Assembly (NCBI GenBank): GCA_040752595.1
Contig: JBFMGX010000014.1
Span: forward strand, 1 to 64,000
DNA: 64,000 nucleotides
Reading direction: 5' to 3'
Source: Candidatus Zixiibacteriota bacterium
Lineage (GTDB): Bacteria > Zixibacteria > MSB-5A5 > WJJR01
The position numbers were made by a program, and so were the translations under genes. Under the pieces are notes generated by a model. It had not been told where the DNA came from and searched no databases. It was given only the letters and a program-made list of their open reading frames with translations. Positions 3,693-63,851 of the stretch are shown here, in pieces. Positions within the stretch are counted from its first letter, which is position 1, and each line of letters begins with the position of its first letter.

Positions 3693-4011
3693 AAGGGGCT
3701 GAAGCCCCTTGTTTACCGTGTGAGACCAAACGGAGCGCTTTGGGGCACGGCGTGCCGTGCCCGTCGGGTGGGTGCTCTGCACCCACCGTTAGGGGGCTGA
3801 AAGCCCCCTGTCCGCGTACTTCGGTCGCAGAGATCGTCAAGGGGCTGAAGCCCCTTGTTTACCGTGTGAGAGCAAACGGAGTGCTTTCTGGGGGCACGGC
3901 GTGCCGTGCCCGTCGGGTGGGTGCTCGGCACCCACCGTCTGGGGGCTGAAAGCCCCCTGTCCGCAGGCCATTGCTCGGATGGTCTTCAAGGGGCTGAAGC
4001 CCCTTGTCCGC
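3693..4011. repeat. Family A palindromic repeat, tandem array with about 146-base period
   Basis: A unit containing AAGGGGCTGAAGCCCCTT, a GGCACGGCGTGCCGTGCC palindrome, a GGTGGGTGCTC..GCACCCACC palindrome and a GGGGGCTGAAAGCCCCC palindrome occurs at 3693 and again at 3839. A third partial copy starts at 3988. Each palindrome could form a hairpin. Similar elements recur throughout the window. The array separates two minus-strand thioredoxin-fold genes and abuts the start of the left one. Confidence 0.9.
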
Positions 4012-11399: not shown

Positions 11400-12521
11400 T
11401 CAGCGTCCGGCAGTGGCGGCGAGCGACGGATGCATGGGGGAGGCGGCTTCGAGTTCAGCGCCAGATACCCGATGGCCAATCCAGAGGGCCTGGATATCGG
11501 CGTACAGTGCCTGTGCCACAGCCCGATGATTGAAACGCTCCCGAACGAAGCGCATCCCTTCGGCATGGATCGGGTAGAGGGTGTCCGGGTCGGCCAGGTA
11601 TGATGCCAGCTTCCCCAAGAAGTCGGCGAGATCGGATTCCCGATAGGTGATGCAATGGACGCCGCCAAAGAACCCCAGATCGCGATAGCAGGGATGGTCG
11701 GGGCAAATCATGACTCCCCCGGTCGCCGTACCGCTGAACGCGACGGGAGGGGGATAATGCAGCCCCGATTCCAGCGGGGCAAACAAGCGGTAGCCATTGG
11801 CCAACTCGTCGCGGCCGCCGCCGGCGTCGGTCGGGAGACTGCCCTGCAACGGCACATCCAGCCAGTTCCGCAGCTCGGCGGTCGGGGCGGCAAGTCGCTG
11901 GGAGAAGTCACTCCGACGGGTCTCGGCCGCGGGGCCATCGGTCGAAAGAGAATGCGCGCGTTGCCATTGATTCTGGTCGGACGTGGGATCGTCGGTGCCG
12001 ATGGCGACGCACTTGTTCTTGCGAACGGCGAATGGCACGATGTCTGAGTGTCGGGGATGAAAGCCGACGGGGACGCCGATCACTCGCCCGGTGAACTCCG
12101 GGAAGGCGGCACGGAAGGCGGGATCGTAGCGGTCATGGGCGGCACACGCCATCAAGAAGTCGACCCGCCCTTCGACCAGCGCCTCGTGGACTTGCACGCA
12201 GTCTCGCATGCCGTCCATAATGTGATAGATCTTGAGCCCGGCGAATCGGCGCACCGGTTCGTGCGGGGGGATGTGCGGGAATCCATTGAAGCACAGCAAG
12301 ACATCGGCCTCGCGGTTGAGGACCGAGACCGAGTGAGTCACTTCGAAATCGTCAGCGGATAGGTGCTTGGCTTCGAGGAAGCGCGACAGCAACGGTCGGT
12401 CTTCGGCGCGCGACAGGAAGAGCAGCGGCTTGTACAGGCGCAGAAACTCGACGCCATAGTCGTGCGTCTGACGTGAATCGGTCAGGTATATCCAGTGCGG
12501 ATTCTGGACGGCGAGCTTCAT
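11400..12521 (-). CDS. GT-B-like glycosyltransferase, last gene of the small-protein operon
   Basis: About 373 aa from ATG 12521, whose ATGA overlaps the stop of the 77-aa ORF upstream; a GTG at 12542 is an alternative. The C-terminal third has the pattern of GT-B family 1/4-type enzymes: APLESGLHYPPPVAFSG, GGVMICPDHPCY, GVHCITYRESDLADFLGKL, a YLADPDTL segment and a final FNHRAVAQALYADIQALW helix. This resembles spore-coat CgeB-like glycosyltransferases. The N-terminal half is divergent. Translational coupling to the small ORF suggests that it acts with, or on, a product of the small proteins. Donor and acceptor are unknown. Confidence 0.6.
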   Translation of the reverse strand: MKLAVQNPHWIYLTDSRQTHDYGVEFLRLYKPLLFLSRAEDRPLLSRFLEAKHLSADDFEVTHSVSVLNREADVLLCFNGFPHIPPHEPVRRFAGLKIYHIMDGMRDCVQVHEALVEGRVDFLMACAAHDRYDPAFRAAFPEFTGRVIGVPVGFHPRHSDIVPFAVRKNKCVAIGTDDPTSDQNQWQRAHSLSTDGPAAETRRSDFSQRLAAPTAELRNWLDVPLQGSLPTDAGGGRDELANGYRLFAPLESGLHYPPPVAFSGTATGGVMICPDHPCYRDLGFFGGVHCITYRESDLADFLGKLASYLADPDTLYPIHAEGMRFVRERFNHRAVAQALYADIQALWIGHRVSGAELEAASPMHPSLAATAGR

Positions 12522-12751
12522 GGCCGGGTCCGTGGCTTGCACCGGGCCGGCGGGGGTTCGTCCGAGGGCGCCGTTCCGCCGCCGAAGAACCAGACGGACG
12601 CGACTGGTTCACGGATGCGATCGACGAACACCGAGTATCCGGTTGGACAGGTCGCTCCGGGTCCGCGCTTCCGTGATTGTCGAGGGCGCCTGGTCCCGGG
12701 GGCTCGTGCCGGCCGGCGTCGGTCGGCGGCGATGGTCGAGTTCGTCTTCAT
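12518..12751 (-). CDS. 77-aa basic small protein of unknown function
   Basis: ATG 12751 has an AGGAA ribosome site 8 bases upstream. Its TGA overlaps the ATG of the glycosyltransferase gene (ATGA), which argues that it is translated. The N-terminal half is rich in Arg/Pro/Lys; the centre reads PTGYSVFVDRIREPVASVWF, then GGGTAPSDEPPP. No signal peptide or known domain is visible. It is fourth of the four small ORFs in the operon. Position and coupling are the main evidence that it is real. Confidence 0.5.
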   Translation of the reverse strand: MKTNSTIAADRRRPARAPGTRRPRQSRKRGPGATCPTGYSVFVDRIREPVASVWFFGGGTAPSDEPPPARCKPRTRP

Positions 12752-12848: not shown

Positions 12849-13067
12849 TTACCCGTTGAAGTTCGGCGTCGGATTGTCGTTGGTGAAATCCAGCGTGCCG
12901 TGCAACACGATGCGATACTCGCCCGTGGTGGGGTTGATCGAATCGACTTTGCAACGGCACGTGGAGGAATTGAACAGCACCTCGGAGATCTTCCACTGCA
13001 AGCGCGACGGCGAGGTGGGGGTCTTCTCCACGGAGTGGATGTCGTTGATGGTCCAGTTGACTGGCAT
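12849..13067 (-). CDS. 72-aa small protein, paralogue 2
   Basis: Starts at ATG 13067 with a GAGGAGA ribosome site; the frame is open to 13094 without one. The sequence holds EKTPTSPSRLQ near residues 14-24 and the core NPTTGEYRIVLHGTLD at 45-60. About half of its residues match the neighbouring 71-aa protein. Cys 37 and 39 form a CRC motif absent from its paralogue. There is no signal peptide, TM helix or domain I recognise. The conserved core looks like a beta-hairpin. It could be a substrate, carrier or structural subunit of the operon. Confidence 0.75.
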   Translation of the reverse strand: MPVNWTINDIHSVEKTPTSPSRLQWKISEVLFNSSTCRCKVDSINPTTGEYRIVLHGTLDFTNDNPTPNFNG

Positions 13068-13130
13068 GTCTTTCTCCTCTACCGGGTCCTTCACCTTGTG
13101 GGGTCGGGCACACGGCTGTTGTGGCGCGGC

Positions 13131-13346
13131 TCAATAGCCGGGGCCGTACCAGTAGTTCGAGTTGTCCATGTCGAGCGTCCCCTGCAACACGATGCGGTAC
13201 TCGCCGGTCTCCGGGTTGCACGACTCGACCTTCGCCCGGGTGTTCACCGAGCAATACACCAGACTGGAAATGCCGCCCTGCAACTGCTTCGGCGATGTCG
13301 GGCACTTCTCCAGCGTCCGGAAGTCGTTAAACGTGAACTTGGTCAT
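13131..13346 (-). CDS. 71-aa small protein, paralogue 1
   Basis: ATG 13346 has a near-perfect AAGGAGGTGA ribosome site, so strong translation is expected. It shares EKCPTSPKQLQ (13-23) and NPETGEYRIVLQGTLD (44-59) with the 72-aa neighbour; the rest is diverged and the C-terminus is NYWYGPGY. Cys at 15, 32 and 43. A GG at 24-25 could suggest a leader cleavage site but is not conserved in paralogue 2. No signal peptide or known domain. Duplication and strong ribosome sites suggest an abundant product of the operon, not a regulator. Confidence 0.8.
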   Translation of the reverse strand: MTKFTFNDFRTLEKCPTSPKQLQGGISSLVYCSVNTRAKVESCNPETGEYRIVLQGTLDMDNSNYWYGPGY

Positions 13347-13389: not shown

Positions 13390-13593
13390 TTACCCCCGCT
13401 CCGGCTCGGCCGGTCCTTCGACGGTCAGACTTGGCCGTCCGGCCCGGCAGTTCAAAAGCAGGCGGTAGTGTGTTGTCGGTATGGATGGCTCCTCCGCGCC
13501 GGGGGACGGTTGCTCGACACGCACCGCCCGGCGGGTCGTCTTCACGGTCTTGCGCGTGTGCACGCGGATGAGAGGTTCAATGATGGTGTCCAT
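13390..13593 (-). CDS. 67-aa small protein coupled to the CphA-N-like gene
   Basis: ATG 13593 is preceded by GGGAGGGGA at a good distance and lies 17 bases inside the end of the upstream gene, so translation is probably coupled. The sequence begins MDTIIEPLIRVHTRKTVKTT, is basic, and has a Pro/Glu-rich middle followed by PTTHYRLLLNC. I do not recognise it. The PTT..YR.LL stretch faintly recalls the PTTGEYRIVL core of the paralogous pair, but this is too short to claim homology. Confidence 0.6.
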   Translation of the reverse strand: MDTIIEPLIRVHTRKTVKTTRRAVRVEQPSPGAEEPSIPTTHYRLLLNCRAGRPSLTVEGPAEPERG

Positions 13594-14248
13594 TACCATT
13601 CCCCTCCCCATTGTCCAGAAACCCGAAAGCCCCCAGCCCCGCGAAGGCCCATTTCCCCCGCGGCGGGGACCAGGACATCCAGCGTGCCAGCTCGATGCCG
13701 TCGCGGGGATCGGTCCGTGTCTCGCTCAACAAACGCGCCGATTGCACCAGGTCGCGGTAACGCCCCGATAGTCGCGGTTTGACGAACATGGCCCCCACGA
13801 GATAGGCGGCGAAATTGGCTGCAAATCCCCCCACGCGGGGGTCGACGCACTCCACAAACAGATCGAAGCGATTCTCCGGCACCCTGTGGCCGCAGGTGAT
13901 CCCCGAGCACAGGCGCATCCCCGACACGGCGCATTGCAGGTCGACGATCACGTGCTCGACCAGGTGCGCCACGTCCGCCACCTCGCCGACCCACTTGAGC
14001 GCCACGCCCTGTTGCGTGTGGAGAAACAGCGGCGTGTTCTCCCATTGCTCGCAGCAGGAGTGACGGGAGAGCGTGGGGAACAGTCCGGCCAAGGCCTGAT
14101 AGATCGTGAGAAAGCCGTTGGTGCGGGGCGGGTCGTACCCCTCCACGTCGAGCGTGACGACGAGATGCCGCCGCTCGGGGCGAAAATTGTGATTGAGCAT
14201 CCGTATCTGCGGAACACGGGCGTACTGGATGCGTCGAATCAGCATCAT
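13577..14248 (-). CDS. Stand-alone cyanophycin-synthetase N-domain-like protein
   Basis: About 224 aa from ATG 14248 (ATG 14245 equally likely; the frame extends to GTG 14308). It lines up with the N-terminal domain of cyanophycin synthetase CphA: RRHLVVTLDVE, then GFLTIYQALAGLFPTL.RHSC, then VAHLVEHVIVDLQCAVSGM (CphA-like HxxEHVxxxLQxxxGM) and RFDLFVECVDPRVGG. The ATP-grasp and Mur-ligase domains that make CphA an enzyme are absent, and none is encoded in this window. It is first in an operon with four small proteins and a glycosyltransferase. A binding or docking role for a peptide-like substrate is inferred from the family only. Confidence 0.6.
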   Translation of the reverse strand: MMLIRRIQYARVPQIRMLNHNFRPERRHLVVTLDVEGYDPPRTNGFLTIYQALAGLFPTLSRHSCCEQWENTPLFLHTQQGVALKWVGEVADVAHLVEHVIVDLQCAVSGMRLCSGITCGHRVPENRFDLFVECVDPRVGGFAANFAAYLVGAMFVKPRLSGRYRDLVQSARLLSETRTDPRDGIELARWMSWSPPRGKWAFAGLGAFGFLDNGEGNGNGHHH

Positions 14249-14861: not shown

Positions 14862-16592
14862 ATGGCCGAACCGGGTGATCAACAGCAGGGTTTGACACTC
14901 GCGTCCGCGCGGGACGGTTCGGCTCCGGCGATGCCGTCGCTCCGGTTCTGGTGGCGGGCGGCACTGATGGCTTCCGCTTCAGCGGCGGTGGCCCTGGGGA
15001 CCTTCCGGCTGTTCACGGCGCTGCCATGGGGACACTATTTCCCCTACTATTGGGACGGCGCTTCGGTTCTGGAGTCGGTCCAGCGCCCCGGTTTCCTTCT
15101 GGGGACCGATCCCGGTCTGAGCGACTACGCGCTGTCGAAGTACGGATACAGCGCCCTCGTATGGGTTGCCAACCGCTTCGTGGGGTTTGACGCGCCGCTC
15201 TATGTCGAGACGCTGTGGTTCCTGGTCTTGTTGATCGCACCATTCTTCGCGCCGGTCTTTCGCACTTCGGAGCGTTTCGGTTGGTTCGGATACTCCGTCT
15301 ATGCGGCGGGGGTGATCACCCTGCCGTTTGTCCACAAGTACGTCGGCATGGCCAATCCGACGATGCAGTCGACGGCGTTGTGGCTCTTGCTCGTGCTTTT
15401 CTACGCGCGGCGACGTGGCGAGCGGGGGGAGTTGATCGGGTGGGCAGTCGTACCGGGTTTGCTGTGCGCCGCCCTCGCGCTGACCGACTACAAGTGGATC
15501 CCCTTTGTCGTTGTCGGCGTTGCCGCCGTCGAGATTCTCGACCCGTTGCGACGACGTCATTGGGATGTGCGGGAATCCTGGCGCAGTGAGCGCGGCCGCA
15601 CGCTCAGGCGCGTGGTCCTGATTCTCTTCTGGACACCGGCACTCCTGGGGATCGTAGCGTGGGCCAACCCGGCATATCGGGAAGCGGTGTTGCGTTACGC
15701 CGTCTCGGGAAACACGATCGATGCTCTCCGTCCGGCGGTGTCATGGAATCTGTTGATCTTTCTCTGGGTATTGGGCGGCTTTTGGGCGGCCGTGTGGACG
15801 GTGTGGCATTGGTGGAGCGAGCACCGACGCATGAGACGAACGGATGCCTGGACTCCCGATGCGCTGTGGCCGGGACGCGTGTTGGCCATCCTGATTGTCG
15901 TGCTGTTCAGCGGGATCATGTGGCCACGTAGCGCGCGCATGTTCGCTCCGGCGGTCGTCTTCGGCATTTTGGTCTTCGCACGGCGGGCACAGCAAACGTG
16001 GGACCGCTGCGATGGGCGCGGGACGCGGCAGGTCGTGACGGCGGTCGGGCTGACGCTGGTCATGCTGGGATTCGCCTGGCGCAGTGTCCGGGCGGGGGAT
16101 TGCCATCGTCTACCGGGGGGCATTGAAAAGATGGCGCGACACATCGTCGCGCACAGGGAGCAAATCGGCCGCGCCCCGGTGGGGACCTACATGCTCCCGT
16201 CGTTTGCGCTGGCGACGGGTCCGGCGATCCGATGGTTCTTCCCGCCGGTTCGCGTAACCAACGAGACCGATTGGATCGTCACCAGCGATTTCCTCGATCC
16301 GGCGGGAATACGGGAGCAACAAGCGATGCGGCGCTACGACTGGCGCTGGACGGTTGACCGTTTTGAAACACGGGGCATCCTGGGCGAGTCCGGAGTGAAG
16401 GTCGCATCATTCCGCAATGAATTCTATACGTCGGCGGGCTATTGGTGCGAGTCGAGCTTTTCGGATGGCGAACTGCTGTTCATTCTCGATCTGGCTTCGA
16501 AGGAAAAGGAACCGACTTGGGACTTGCGCTATGTCGGCGGGATTTTCGGGCGGGCATTGCCGGACACGACGGGGATGGGGACAGGGCGGTGA
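14862..16592 (+). CDS. Polytopic membrane protein, possibly GT-C-type glycosyltransferase
   Basis: 576 aa from ATG 14862, with a strong GGAGGATGAGGA ribosome site. About ten hydrophobic segments lie between residues 30 and 410, followed by a roughly 170-aa hydrophilic C-terminal domain. After the first TM comes YYWDGASVLESVQRPGFLLG, an Asp-containing loop in the position used by GT-C enzymes. I recognise no specific family. It stands alone, upstream of an ABC-2 exporter and a repeat block. A role in polysaccharide or lipid-linked sugar metabolism is a guess from topology and neighbours. Confidence 0.6.
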   Translation: MAEPGDQQQGLTLASARDGSAPAMPSLRFWWRAALMASASAAVALGTFRLFTALPWGHYFPYYWDGASVLESVQRPGFLLGTDPGLSDYALSKYGYSALVWVANRFVGFDAPLYVETLWFLVLLIAPFFAPVFRTSERFGWFGYSVYAAGVITLPFVHKYVGMANPTMQSTALWLLLVLFYARRRGERGELIGWAVVPGLLCAALALTDYKWIPFVVVGVAAVEILDPLRRRHWDVRESWRSERGRTLRRVVLILFWTPALLGIVAWANPAYREAVLRYAVSGNTIDALRPAVSWNLLIFLWVLGGFWAAVWTVWHWWSEHRRMRRTDAWTPDALWPGRVLAILIVVLFSGIMWPRSARMFAPAVVFGILVFARRAQQTWDRCDGRGTRQVVTAVGLTLVMLGFAWRSVRAGDCHRLPGGIEKMARHIVAHREQIGRAPVGTYMLPSFALATGPAIRWFFPPVRVTNETDWIVTSDFLDPAGIREQQAMRRYDWRWTVDRFETRGILGESGVKVASFRNEFYTSAGYWCESSFSDGELLFILDLASKEKEPTWDLRYVGGIFGRALPDTTGMGTGR

Positions 16593-16603
16593 TCGCATGT
16601 AGA

Positions 16604-16728
16604 GTGGGTGCTCCGCACCCACCGTCTGCGGGCTGATGTTCCTCAATGCGCGGTGGGTGCAAAGCACCCACCCTACTCACTCCCTGTCCGCGATACGGAT
16701 CAACTCCAAGGGGCTGAAGCCCCTTGTT
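16604..16728. repeat. Family A palindromic repeat cluster
   Basis: GTGGGTGCTCCGCACCCAC, then GGTGGGTGCAAAGCACCCACC, then AAGGGGCTGAAGCCCCTT, separated by short spacers including CCTGTCCGCGATACGGAT. It lies between the membrane protein gene and the ABC ATPase gene. Confidence 0.85.
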
Positions 16729-28536: not shown

Positions 28537-28568
28537 CGCCCCGCTGCACTATTGTGGCGGGGCGTTTT
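28537..28568 (+). terminator. Rho-independent terminator after the subtilase
   Basis: CGCCCCGC and GCGGGGCG form an 8-bp stem around a 12-base loop, followed by TTTTGTTT. Confidence 0.75.
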
Positions 28569-28577
28569 GTTTGGAAT

Positions 28578-28747
28578 GTAGGGTGGGTGCTTTGCACCCA
28601 CCGTCAGGGGGCTGAAAGCCCCCAGTCCGGAATTTCGAACGACATGAGAGGATTGGTAGGGGCACGGCGGGCCGTGCCCACGGTGTGTCACGGACCCTGG
28701 CCCTCGTGAATCGGAAGAGCGAGATGGTGGGCGGAGCCGACCCTATG
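28578..28747. repeat. Family A palindromic repeat cluster
   Basis: GGTGGGTGCTTTGCACCCACC, GGGGGCTGAAAGCCCCC, GGGCACGGCGGGCCGTGCCC and GGTGGGCGGAGCCGACCC in sequence, between the subtilase terminator and the convergent TauE-like gene. Confidence 0.85.
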
Positions 28748-29489: not shown

Positions 29490-29516
29490 GGGGATGTGGT
29501 GTCGTCTCGTGGATTA

Positions 29517-29605
29517 AGGGTGGGTGCTCCGCACCCCCCATCAGCGGGCTGAAAGCCCGCTGTCCGCGATTGGCTCTTGGTGGGTGCCAAGCACCCACCC
29601 TACAT
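29517..29605. repeat. Family A palindromic repeat cluster
   Basis: GGGTGGGTGCTCCGCACCCCCC, GCGGGCTGAAAGCCCGC and GGTGGGTGCCAAGCACCCACC, between tauE-like and birA. Confidence 0.85.
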
Positions 29606-45159: not shown

Positions 45160-46679
45160 GCAGCCATCCGCCCCCGATCACCACGGCGCCATCGGTCGAT
45201 GCCGAGCAACGGCGGCGCGCCCACACGGTTCTCAAGGCGCTGTTCGCGGCCTGGCGCGCGGCGGCTGTCTATGACGACAACAACGCCGGCTACCGCAGTC
45301 GCCGTTCGGAACTGGACGAGGCGCTGGCCGATCTGTTCGACCACGGCAGTGATTGCCGGATCAGCTATCAGAACGACTACCTTTTCTTCAACGGCGAGCG
45401 CCTGAACTACGACCGCGAGTTCTCATCCGGACGGCCATTGGCGGAACGGTTCGGTGAATTGGGACTGGGCGATCTGACGATCCACGCCGATGCGTCTCCC
45501 GACCAGATCGACCAGGCGCTCTTCGCGCTTGCCGAGGCGGGCCGTCGTCCTGACCGGACATTCGACGCGCTGCGTGAGACATGGACGGGACTTGCGATCA
45601 CGGGCATCACGATCGGCCCGCTGTCGTTGCACGGCAGCCGGCTCCCATCGTCCGGGGCGACCACAACCAACTCCCAGGAAGCCCGTCGCCGCCGTGCCCT
45701 AGCGTTGTTCCAGCGCTCGGAAGCAGTCGTGCAGGATTTCTGGGAGCGGGTACGGGACCGCAACTCCTTTGATTCCGGCTCGGTCCAGCGCACTGTGCAT
45801 CAATTGATCGACGAAGTTGCCGGCGAGGAGGACATTCTTTTCGAGTTCGCCGCGCTGAAGGATTTCGATGAGTACACGTTCTACCATTCGGTCAACGTCG
45901 CCATCTACTCCATCGCCGTCGGCATGCGTCTGGGGCTGGACCGGATGGCGTTGACGCGCCTTGGCCTGGCGGCCATGTTGCATGACATCGGCAAAGTCAA
46001 ACTTCCGCGCGACCTCATCACCAAACCGAAGGAATTCGACGAGGACGACTGGACGCAGATCAAACGGCACCCGGCGCTCGGCGCTCTCACCATCGCCAGT
46101 ATGCGACCGCTCGATGCGCAGGTGAGTACGGCGATGGCCGGGGCTTTCGAGCACCACCTCAACGTCGACCTCTCCGGATACCCGACCTTGACAAGACCGA
46201 GGGTCCTGCAACTTGAGTCCCGGATCATCGCGCTCTGCGACGCCTTTGACGCGATGACCTCGGGGCGGGTCTACCAGAAAGAGGCGATCAGTCCGGATGA
46301 GGCGATGCGGCGGCTCCTCCACCAAGGGGCCACCCGGTATGATCCCTTGGTGGTGAAGGCGTTTGTCCACACGGTCGGTGTCTTCCCGGTGGGAACGGTG
46401 GGACGGCTGTCGGATGGATCGCTGGCGGTGGTGATCCGAAACGATTCGACGGATCTATATGCTCCCGTGGTCCTTGTGATCCGCGATGCTCATGGGGTGC
46501 CGGTGCGAACAGAGAGGCGACTCGCCCCGCAGCCGGATGCGCCGGCAGACGAACGTCTACATCTGATGGAAATCCTCAACCCGCGGGATGTCGGGGTCAA
46601 CGTGGCCGACTACATCGGCGTGATTAATCCCGCCGAACCCGACGCATCGAACGAAGCTCTCGCCGGTGTCGCCCTGTAG
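45156..46679 (+). CDS. HD-GYP domain protein with an N-terminal sensor-like domain
   Basis: 507 aa, starting inside the stop of the HEAT gene. Residues 20-130 carry a domain with LKALFAAWRAAAVYDDNN, CRISYQNDYLFFNGERLNYD and GDLTIHADASPDQIDQAL, laid out like the N-domain of the HEAT protein. The HD-GYP domain has His244 (FYHSVNVA), His276-Asp277 (LHDIGK), KRHP near 305, and HHLNVDLSGYP at 333-343. HD-GYP enzymes hydrolyse cyclic dinucleotides such as c-di-GMP. The final 100 residues form a beta-rich C-domain (RLSDGSLAVVIRND). It is followed by a family A repeat block. Confidence 0.85.
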   Translation: MSSHPPPITTAPSVDAEQRRRAHTVLKALFAAWRAAAVYDDNNAGYRSRRSELDEALADLFDHGSDCRISYQNDYLFFNGERLNYDREFSSGRPLAERFGELGLGDLTIHADASPDQIDQALFALAEAGRRPDRTFDALRETWTGLAITGITIGPLSLHGSRLPSSGATTTNSQEARRRRALALFQRSEAVVQDFWERVRDRNSFDSGSVQRTVHQLIDEVAGEEDILFEFAALKDFDEYTFYHSVNVAIYSIAVGMRLGLDRMALTRLGLAAMLHDIGKVKLPRDLITKPKEFDEDDWTQIKRHPALGALTIASMRPLDAQVSTAMAGAFEHHLNVDLSGYPTLTRPRVLQLESRIIALCDAFDAMTSGRVYQKEAISPDEAMRRLLHQGATRYDPLVVKAFVHTVGVFPVGTVGRLSDGSLAVVIRNDSTDLYAPVVLVIRDAHGVPVRTERRLAPQPDAPADERLHLMEILNPRDVGVNVADYIGVINPAEPDASNEALAGVAL

Positions 46680-46680
46680 C

Positions 46681-46798
46681 GGCGGGTGCTTTGCACCCAC
46701 CGCCAGGGGGCTCGAAGCCCCGTGTCAGCAAGGGAATGCAGGTTCGAGGACAGCGGGTTTTCAACCCGCTGATGGTGGGTGCAGAGCACCCACCCTAC
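46681..46798. repeat. Family A palindromic repeat cluster
   Basis: GGCGGGTGCTTTGCACCCACCGCC, GGGGGCTCGAAGCCCC, GCGGGTTTTCAACCCGC and GGTGGGTGCAGAGCACCCACC between the convergent HD-GYP and lepA genes. Confidence 0.85.
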
Positions 46799-60959: not shown

Positions 60960-63851
60960 TCATTGGATCGGTGGACAGTTGGTCGGATAGGGATCACATT
61001 GACAGGGATTGCAGATCCGTGTCGCCGGATCATACCCTCGGAAGGCAACGTCCGCCATCCGAACCACATCCTGCACATTGCAGAAACCACTACAGTCCAA
61101 GTCGGTGCGCTGGGCTGGATTGCCGCTTCCACACAACGGGTCAAATGTCGGCGCTTTGCCCCGGAAGGCCACGTCGGTCGTCGCCACCACGTCTTGGACA
61201 TTCGTTATCGTGTCGCAGTACGGATCCCCCAAGCAGGGACAGTGACAGGCAACGGTGATCGTTCCTTTCGTGAACGACGGCACCCTGATCTGCGGCGTTT
61301 CGCAGGCGGCCCCACCCACGAATTGCAGATGATTCCCCGGTGCCACGCAGCCGGTGTCGATCTCGAACGTCCCCGGATTCATGGTCACGTCGAATGTGAG
61401 GATGAACGAGGCGTTGGCCGTCCCCGGCGGATCGGCACCGGCGGCCAGGACATCATTGGGAGGCTGGGCGAGGCTCGTATACGACCACAGGACGCCATCT
61501 GGGCTCACGAAATCCACAGTGGGTGCCGGAGTCTGATAGCTGTTCGCCGTCGGTCCGCTACACGATGTGCCGCTGGGCGTGGCATAGTATTGCTTGGCCC
61601 CTGATCCCTGGCCGACGGGACTGGCGCCCACGCGGTTGGCGGGTGGGACGCTGAGCACCAGTGAATTGGCGATGTAAGCGCCGCCTGTCACGGTGCGAAT
61701 ATCCAGAGGCAGCGTGATCGCCGAGATGTCGATGTCATTGGTGATGGCGATCCCCGCCTGCACGCTCGTGGCGCCCAGCCAGACAGTCTTGGATTCGACC
61801 ACCACAGCGCCACCGGGGTCCGTCTGCCACGCCAAACACGAGGCACAATCACACGAGTTGCAGAAGATCACATCCGGATCGTACTCCTTGAACGCGGCGC
61901 AGACCATCTTGATGACATCGAGGATGTTGGTGCCATCGTCGCAGTTGACGTTGGTCCGCTCCTTCGGGCAATTGGGATCGAAGACAGGAGTCTGCCCGCG
62001 GAAGGCGACGTTGACTGCCGCGTTGACATCAATGACCGTGACCTCTCCATCGCAATTGGGGTCGCCGTCGCAGGGGCAGTCGCAGATGGTGATGACACCT
62101 TTGGTGAACGCCGGGAGGAATGGCGGCGGGTCGCAGTCCGGTGTGCCCATGAACAGCAGGTGATTCCCTGGGGCGACGCAACAGGTGTCGATCTCGAATA
62201 CCCCGCCGCTCCCGTTCACGTCGAAGGTGAGCAGGAATGAGGCATTGGCGGTACCGGGCGGATCCGCGCCCACTGGCAGAATGCCGGCGGGTGGTGGACC
62301 CGTTACAAATCCGGACCACAAGACCGCATCGGGGCTGATGAAGTCAACCGGCCCCTCCGTCTGGTAACCGCTGGAGATCGGGCCGCTGCAGTTGCCGTCG
62401 GCGGTGGGGTAGTAGCGCTTGTCAATGCTCCCGGAAGCGATCGGACTTGAGCCGACTCGGTTGCCGGGGGGAACGGTCAGGGTAAGCGCGTTGGCAGTGA
62501 AAGCACCGCCGCTGACAGTGCGGAACTCCAGTGGCAGCACGATCCCGGTCAAGTCCATCTTGTTGGCCAGAGAAACCCCGACCTCCACGCCGACCTCGTT
62601 CTTCTGCACCATCTTCGATTCCACCACGACGGATCCGCCGGGAGTCACGGGCGGGCGCTGACATGACGGGCAGTCGCAGGAGTTGCAGAAGAGCTGAGCC
62701 GGCGAGTAACCATGGAAGGCGACACATTCGAACAGTCTCACGTCGAGAATGTTGGTCACGTCATCGCAGTTGACGTTCGTTCGCTCCTTCGGACAGTCGG
62801 GATCGAATACCGGAGCAGCACCGCGGAAGGCGACGTTGACCGCCTGCGTAAGATCGGTGACAGTCACGAAGCCGTCGCAATTGGGATCGCCGTCACAGGG
62901 ACAATCGCAGAGGGTGATGGTTCCCTTGGTGAATGTCGGCAGGCGAACCTCGGCATTACAGCCGTTCCCGGCCGTGAACATCAGGTGATTCCCCGGGGTG
63001 ACACAACAGGTGTCGATCTCAAACGTCCCGACGTTGGCGTTGGCATCGAAGGTGAGCAGGAAGCTGGCGTTGGCCGTCCCCGGCGGGTCGGCGCCCGCGG
63101 GCAGCATGTCTCCGGGTGGGACAGTCGAGCTGTACCCGGCCCACAGGATGCCGTCGGGGCTGACATAGTCCACAGCGCCCGCTCCCGTCGTGTACGTGTA
63201 TGAGATCGGCCCGCTGCAAGGCATACCACCGGGCATGGGATAGTACAGGCTTGTGACCGCGCCGGTGCCGACCGGGCTTGAGCCGACACGGTTGGCGGCC
63301 GGGACCGTGAAGGAGAGGTTGGCTGCAATGTAAGCGCCTCCAGTGACGGAGCGAAGCTCCAGCGGCATCACGATAGCCGAGATGTCGACGTCATTAGCAA
63401 TCGAGATGCCCACCTGAACCCCTGCTGTTGCGGGCGGAACTCTCTTGGATTCAACGGTGACCGAGCCACCGGTATCCGTGGGCGTGGGGATGCAGAACCA
63501 GCACGTGCAGGAATTGCAGAAGCACTGGTCGTGCGGGTCCCCGTGGAACAGATAGCCCACCATCTTCGTGACGTCGAGCACGTCGGTGACGCCGTCGCAG
63601 TTGAAGTTGGTTCTCTCCTTGGGGCAATCGGGATCGAACACAGGTGGCGAGCCCCGGAACGCGACGTCGACTGTATGCGCCAGATCCACGACGGTGACAA
63701 TGCCGCTGCAGTCTGGGTCGCCGTCGCAGGGGCAATTGCAGGTGGCGACTCCGGCCGTCGCCGGGGACGGCTCCGCCACCGGGATGGCAGCCCATGCCGC
63801 CGTAGAGGCCAGCAGAACTAAGACAACAGACAAACAGGCCGCGCGCTTCAT
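60960..63851 (-). CDS. Exported protein alternating four dockerin-like and three cohesin-like domains
   Basis: 963 aa with AAGGAGG upstream of ATG 63851. Signal peptide 1-22. Dockerin-like domains at about 38-120, 315-397, 590-672 and 869-955 each carry two EF-hand-type loops (for example GDPNCDGFVTVTDL and NVNCDDVTNILD) bracketed by Cys clusters (CPCDGDP at the start, CNSCxCxxC at the end). Between them lie three beta-rich domains of about 185 aa (127-310, 404-585, 679-865) with shared GGSVxVESK, ANRVGSSP, DPPGTANASFLLTFD and APGNHL motifs, resembling cohesins. The period is about 277 residues. It could be a surface scaffold or adhesin; binding partners are unknown. Confidence 0.85.
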   Translation of the reverse strand: MKRAACLSVVLVLLASTAAWAAIPVAEPSPATAGVATCNCPCDGDPDCSGIVTVVDLAHTVDVAFRGSPPVFDPDCPKERTNFNCDGVTDVLDVTKMVGYLFHGDPHDQCFCNSCTCWFCIPTPTDTGGSVTVESKRVPPATAGVQVGISIANDVDISAIVMPLELRSVTGGAYIAANLSFTVPAANRVGSSPVGTGAVTSLYYPMPGGMPCSGPISYTYTTGAGAVDYVSPDGILWAGYSSTVPPGDMLPAGADPPGTANASFLLTFDANANVGTFEIDTCCVTPGNHLMFTAGNGCNAEVRLPTFTKGTITLCDCPCDGDPNCDGFVTVTDLTQAVNVAFRGAAPVFDPDCPKERTNVNCDDVTNILDVRLFECVAFHGYSPAQLFCNSCDCPSCQRPPVTPGGSVVVESKMVQKNEVGVEVGVSLANKMDLTGIVLPLEFRTVSGGAFTANALTLTVPPGNRVGSSPIASGSIDKRYYPTADGNCSGPISSGYQTEGPVDFISPDAVLWSGFVTGPPPAGILPVGADPPGTANASFLLTFDVNGSGGVFEIDTCCVAPGNHLLFMGTPDCDPPPFLPAFTKGVITICDCPCDGDPNCDGEVTVIDVNAAVNVAFRGQTPVFDPNCPKERTNVNCDDGTNILDVIKMVCAAFKEYDPDVIFCNSCDCASCLAWQTDPGGAVVVESKTVWLGATSVQAGIAITNDIDISAITLPLDIRTVTGGAYIANSLVLSVPPANRVGASPVGQGSGAKQYYATPSGTSCSGPTANSYQTPAPTVDFVSPDGVLWSYTSLAQPPNDVLAAGADPPGTANASFILTFDVTMNPGTFEIDTGCVAPGNHLQFVGGAACETPQIRVPSFTKGTITVACHCPCLGDPYCDTITNVQDVVATTDVAFRGKAPTFDPLCGSGNPAQRTDLDCSGFCNVQDVVRMADVAFRGYDPATRICNPCQCDPYPTNCPPIQ

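Follow-up and report, generated by a model that had tools for sequence, protein, structure and literature searches.

The window is a 64,000-nucleotide stretch of Candidatus Zixiibacteriota DNA. Gene N lies on its minus strand, from an ATG at 14248 to a stop codon at 13577 (13577–14248), and encodes a protein of 223 amino acids. It is followed on the same strand by four small genes in the order A, B, C and D. Gene A (13390–13611, minus strand) overlaps the end of N and encodes a basic, variable protein of up to 73 amino acids with a Y-x5-C motif, YRLLLNC, at 13467–13447. Gene B (13131–13346, minus strand) encodes 71 amino acids, TGEYRIVLQGTLD and then the tail MDNSNYWYGPGY. Gene C (12849–13067, minus strand, with an alternative GTG start at 13094) encodes a 72-residue paralogue of B that is 52% identical to it and has a tail ending in PNFNG. 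The candidate for gene D (12518–12751, minus strand; 77 amino acids) is the least certain part of the locus, it has an Arg-rich N-terminus and the motif SVWFFG at 12598–12581, and unlike most of its relatives it continues for about 20 residues after this motif. The three or four small-protein families of the module were not recognised by any library searched, and neither an Rfam match nor a promoter-like site was found. The earlier note had described a small-protein gene coupled to N; this gene exists and is the first of four.

The N protein matches the N-terminal domain of cyanophycin synthase (PF18921) with 33.5 bits against the curated Pfam cut-off of 27 (E 4.6e-8). The first 137 or so of the 862 positions of TIGR02068 also match it (E 1.9e-8), and the solved cyanophycin synthase structure 7lg5 is matched at E 0.004. 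An AlphaFold2 model of N, built from a five-sequence alignment and with a mean pLDDT of 71.6, superposes on residues 1–162 of SuCphA1 (7txv_A) with Z 13.8 and 2.5 Å over 138 residues, whereas the best chain outside the cyanophycin synthetases reaches Z 7.0. The CphA-N-like peptidase domain comprises residues 14–160 approximately (13769–14209, minus strand; VIA-align range 15–179 of the model against SuCphA1 1–162). The segments RRHLVVTLDVE, HLVEHVIVDLQ..SGM and RFDLFVECVDP, on which the similarity to CphA was originally claimed, are all present in the order given. Of the two outcomes named beforehand as speaking against that claim, an unrelated predicted fold and a similarity that disappears in profile comparison, neither was found. 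N is thus confirmed as a relative of the first CphA domain that stands alone, and the similarity is genuine.

The ATP-grasp (G) and Mur-ligase (M) domains of CphA are absent from N, as had been stated; the chain ends at 223 amino acids with a winged helix, small unrelated genes come after it instead, and the open frames of its intact relatives span 194–282 amino acids. In a phylogenetic tree the free-standing N proteins form a clade separate from three CphA N domains with a support of 100/100; the tree is midpoint-rooted and its CphA side is limited to these three rows. The 24 intact free-standing relatives, their separate clade and the purifying selection on N led us to reject a truncated or decaying CphA. 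Two earlier proposals, that the fold has been reused outside CphA and that N is linked to small proteins, are supported.

The N domain of CphA is itself an enzyme, a point overlooked earlier. In SuCphA1 this domain acts as a zinc endopeptidase of an inverzincin-like kind, its motif being Cx19HxxEH (C59, H79, E82 and H83); it is active in trans when isolated, and the substitution E82Q abolishes its activity (PMC9262961). The peptidase is slow and its substrate is the beta-Asp-Arg polymer; R70 and E90 touch cyanophycin in the structure (PMC9262961). The description of N as lacking its catalytic domains is therefore doubtful. In the window protein H63-S-C65 (14054–14062, minus strand) corresponds to SuCphA1 H57 and C59, the latter being the third zinc ligand, and H95-L-V-E98-H99 (13952–13966, minus strand) provides the predicted HxxEH zinc ligands and general base (H79, E82 and H83). 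The equivalents of H57, C59, H79, E82, H83 and T101 are invariant in all 24 free-standing N proteins, and the equivalent of E87 is either D or E. Conservation does not extend to F67, R70, E90 and R100, the window protein having W and C at the positions of R70 and E90. The spacing between the Cys and HxxEH is x26–33 in the 24 proteins, compared with x19 in CphA1, and the Cys loop of N (residues 66–87) has a pLDDT below 50 in the model.

The catalytic site of N is well supported by sequence. The simplest reading is that this site has been retained while the substrate groove has changed. Since the zinc site is kept in 24 of 24 proteins while the residues that contact cyanophycin are not conserved, N is probably an active peptidase with a substrate other than that of CphA1. 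The idea that N merely holds a peptide becomes doubtful, because none of the 24 proteins deviates at the positions of the metal ligands and the general base; cleavage of the peptide is the better reading. N shares the fold, the C-H-H zinc triad, the base Glu and the supporting H57 and T101 with the SuCphA1 N domain (PMC9262961). It differs in being free-standing, in its winged helix, in a loop that is 7–14 residues longer, in the absence of a G or M domain, in the unconserved R70 and E90 and lost R100 and F67, and in its linkage to small proteins. The HxxEH motif order is common to N and the M16 inverzincins (pitrilysin and insulin-degrading enzyme). The M16 enzymes have a large fold, and their third ligand, an acidic residue or His, lies downstream, whereas N is far smaller, at 223 residues, with an upstream Cys, and no M16 Pfam match was found in it.

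The model suggests that a winged-helix domain has been added C-terminally relative to the CphA N domain (residues 162–215 approximately; 13604–13765, minus strand). Residues 164–215 of the model match winged helices of the BirA and IclR types weakly, with Z about 5. The Pfam search of the window protein did not detect this domain, and the relative of N in G267 exceeds the cut-off of HTH_24 (PF13412).

A Y-x5-C open reading frame adjoins N in 23 of 24 loci; these frames were picked by position and motif, and the count carries no chance expectation. The A proteins are variable and often basic, with one such motif each. B and C belong to a family of paralogues of about 70 amino acids, in which a conserved body ending in TGEYRIVLxGTLD is followed by a variable tail. 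The model of B is weak (pLDDT 64) and has no match in the PDB. A shares the YR-hydrophobic motif with B and C and has a Cys where they have a Gly; the motif was spotted by eye and the resemblance may be coincidental. D-like frames, with an aromatic-x-FG motif near the C-terminus, occur in 15 loci, after C in 14 Zixibacteria and before A in the locus of G267 (L115). Their N-termini are rich in Lys and Arg in most loci and acidic or neutral in family f12, and in G267 the N-terminus of D is a helix-hairpin-helix that exceeds the cut-off of PF14520. Pairwise dN/dS is 0.18–0.21 for N, 0.03–0.16 for B and 0.13–0.29 for C; L041/L042, the best measurable pair for the other two genes, gives 0.19 for A and 0.23 for D. 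N, B and C are under purifying selection, as are A and D in L041/L042, and conservation within the module is highest in B and C. In L034 (G124) the D position is occupied by a shorter basic protein similar to one in L085 (6533–7564, G125), a 344-residue TRK-repeat protein that matches histone H1-like HC2 (PF07382) and follows a C-like remnant.

A search of 132 Zixibacteria genomes gave 26 matches to N, 23 of them intact. With one genome outside the phylum, G267 (from a wider set of 386 genomes), in which the module is permuted to D-A-B-C-N, this makes 24 carriers of a free-standing N. The B/C family was found in 21 of the 132 genomes, and 19 genomes have both (Fisher p 4e-17, a value that overstates independence since the genomes are related). 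Four genomes of family f14 have N and A with B/C undetected. In G010 N stands by itself and a lone B-like gene is found some 440 kb away; an A-like YRLIFNC in G010 was dropped, lying within another open reading frame. B/C is thus not obligatory for N. G129 and G125 carry B/C-like genes without N. Single B/C-like genes, remote from N genes, are found at L083 (6368–6928, G129) and L084 (6003–6329, G130), both upstream of a gene for a trypsin/HtrA-type protease, named by eye from its sequence.

In family f3, G001, G002 and G003 have only an in-frame C-terminal remnant of N without HxC and HxxEH, G004 keeps HLLEH and has lost the Cys, and B/C is missing from all four genomes, so in this family loss of the site accompanies loss of the partners. 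The f3 loci L049 (G004), L050 (G002), L051 (G001) and L117 (G003) encode N derivatives of 130–156 amino acids that retain the C-terminal half; the rarA-type neighbours of those in G001, G002 and G004 are common to intact loci. In one genome of the Zixibacteria, G030, PF18921 is matched more strongly by a longer open frame, which is likely to be a true CphA. The genome of the window contains no second PF18921 domain and no cyanophycinase, and its single RimK-type ATP-grasp is on another contig, unlinked to N. In the 8 kb around N, neither a ligase nor any other partner gene recurs over a broad range of families.

We propose that N, standing alone with the fold of the CphA N domain, works as a zinc endopeptidase that processes the co-encoded small proteins, a reading to which we give an even chance. 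What has been shown is the homology, the invariant zinc site, the unconserved cyanophycin contacts, the module and the co-occurrence. The permuted module in G267, the combined losses in family f3, the purifying selection and the lack of another recurring partner also speak for it. The longer, poorly modelled Cys loop, the slow action of the SuCphA1 peptidase on a beta-Asp-Arg polymer and the genomes that have N with B/C undetected speak against it. The products of the other four genes are probably what N cuts or is controlled by. N would bind zinc, probably recognise extended YRIVL-type strands of the neighbouring small proteins, and hydrolyse a peptide bond nearby. We infer that B and C are the substrates, in which case the cut would most likely release their variable C-terminal tails after the GTLD(x)(D/E) segment. 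A, with its variant of the YR-hydrophobic motif, and D, with its putative nucleic-acid-binding N-terminus and xWxFG motif, may regulate or localise the reaction. An extended version, rather improbable as a whole, is an autonomous protease module with N as peptidase, A as inhibitor, B and C as substrates and D as a DNA- or nucleoid-binding localiser. Here the invariant Cys of A (YRIVLxC) would cap the catalytic zinc of N as a cysteine switch; the idea arises solely from the Cys of A, which stands where B and C have Gly (YRIVLxG) after the shared YR-hydrophobic strand.

N could instead be mainly a transcriptional regulator, whose winged helix binds DNA and whose zinc peptidase domain is a sensor or switch, as in other proteases linked to helix-turn-helix domains. 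ImmA/IrrE metallopeptidases have such partners, they carry an HExxH motif and their fold is unlike that of N; the tie between metallopeptidase and helix-turn-helix is shared as an idea, and the motif of N is HLVEH. D would be an accessory nucleoid protein, and A, B and C ligands or target proteins. The C-terminal winged helix, the helix-hairpin-helix or basic N-terminus of D, and the f3 remnants, which without catalytic motifs keep the half bearing the winged helix as an intact open reading frame, are consistent with this reading. We nevertheless consider it unlikely, as the recognition helix, judged by eye, is not notably basic in most members, and the high conservation of B and C relative to the other members is more in keeping with substrates or structural components than with targets that vary.

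The conserved domain and variable tail of B and C, rich in aromatic residues, Gly and Asp, their two to four tandem copies per locus (three or four in family f19) and the joining of a peptidase to a winged helix also recall a RiPP-like cassette. B and C, perhaps with A and D, would be precursors with a conserved leader of about 60 residues and a short core, and N would be the leader peptidase, with its winged helix binding the leader much as the RRE does in lasso-peptide B proteins. The latter consist of an RRE and a leader peptidase, and they too combine a winged helix and a peptidase beside small-protein genes; their peptidase class differs from that of N, and no cyclase or exporter recurs beside N. 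We think this quite unlikely, since the surroundings of N show no recurrent gene for a modifying enzyme or an exporter, the tails are constant across genera inside one family (DPNFW..VY in f12, WENPETWWTNR in f15), and the N proteins searched have no PqqD/RRE match in Pfam, HTH_24 being the best match in L115.

A non-catalytic scaffold, in which the fold serves only to bind the small proteins in a chaperone or assembly role, would fit the altered spacing of the zinc loop and the anchoring of nascent chains by the N domain of CphA1 (PMC9262961). It is quite unlikely too, because the four catalytic positions and H57 are strictly kept even where identity to the window protein falls to about 28%, and such strictness is not easily accounted for if N has no catalytic role; the two His and the Cys, but not the Glu, might equally be needed for a structural zinc. 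A mobile or viral origin of N was rejected after searches of phages, plasmids, IMG/VR and PHROGs gave no match, as was a known defence system after PADLOC gave none.

CphA has been proposed to be a combination of three enzymes (PMC9262961). The free-standing clade, with its retained zinc site and its ties to four small-protein families, would represent the CphA peptidase as it occurs naturally on its own, and the ancestral substrate of the N domain and the origin of CphA priming would become directly testable. We found no description of the family in the open-access literature on PF18921, standalone N domains, or Zixibacteria and cyanophycin, of which our coverage was incomplete.

Two further features of the window lie outside the module. 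A palindrome-rich dispersed repeat of about 74 nucleotides, GGGTGGGTGCTC.GCACCCACC...GGGGGCTGAAAGCCCCC, which looks like a REP-type element, is present in at least six direct copies (3742–3815, 3891–3964, 16578–16651, 28557–28630, 29494–29567 and 46656–46729) and one inverted copy (46742–46798). A gene at 60960–63851 on the minus strand encodes a 963-residue protein with Cys-rich, dockerin-like CPCDGDPNCDG units, and contains internal repeats of about 825 nucleotides at 61316–63774.
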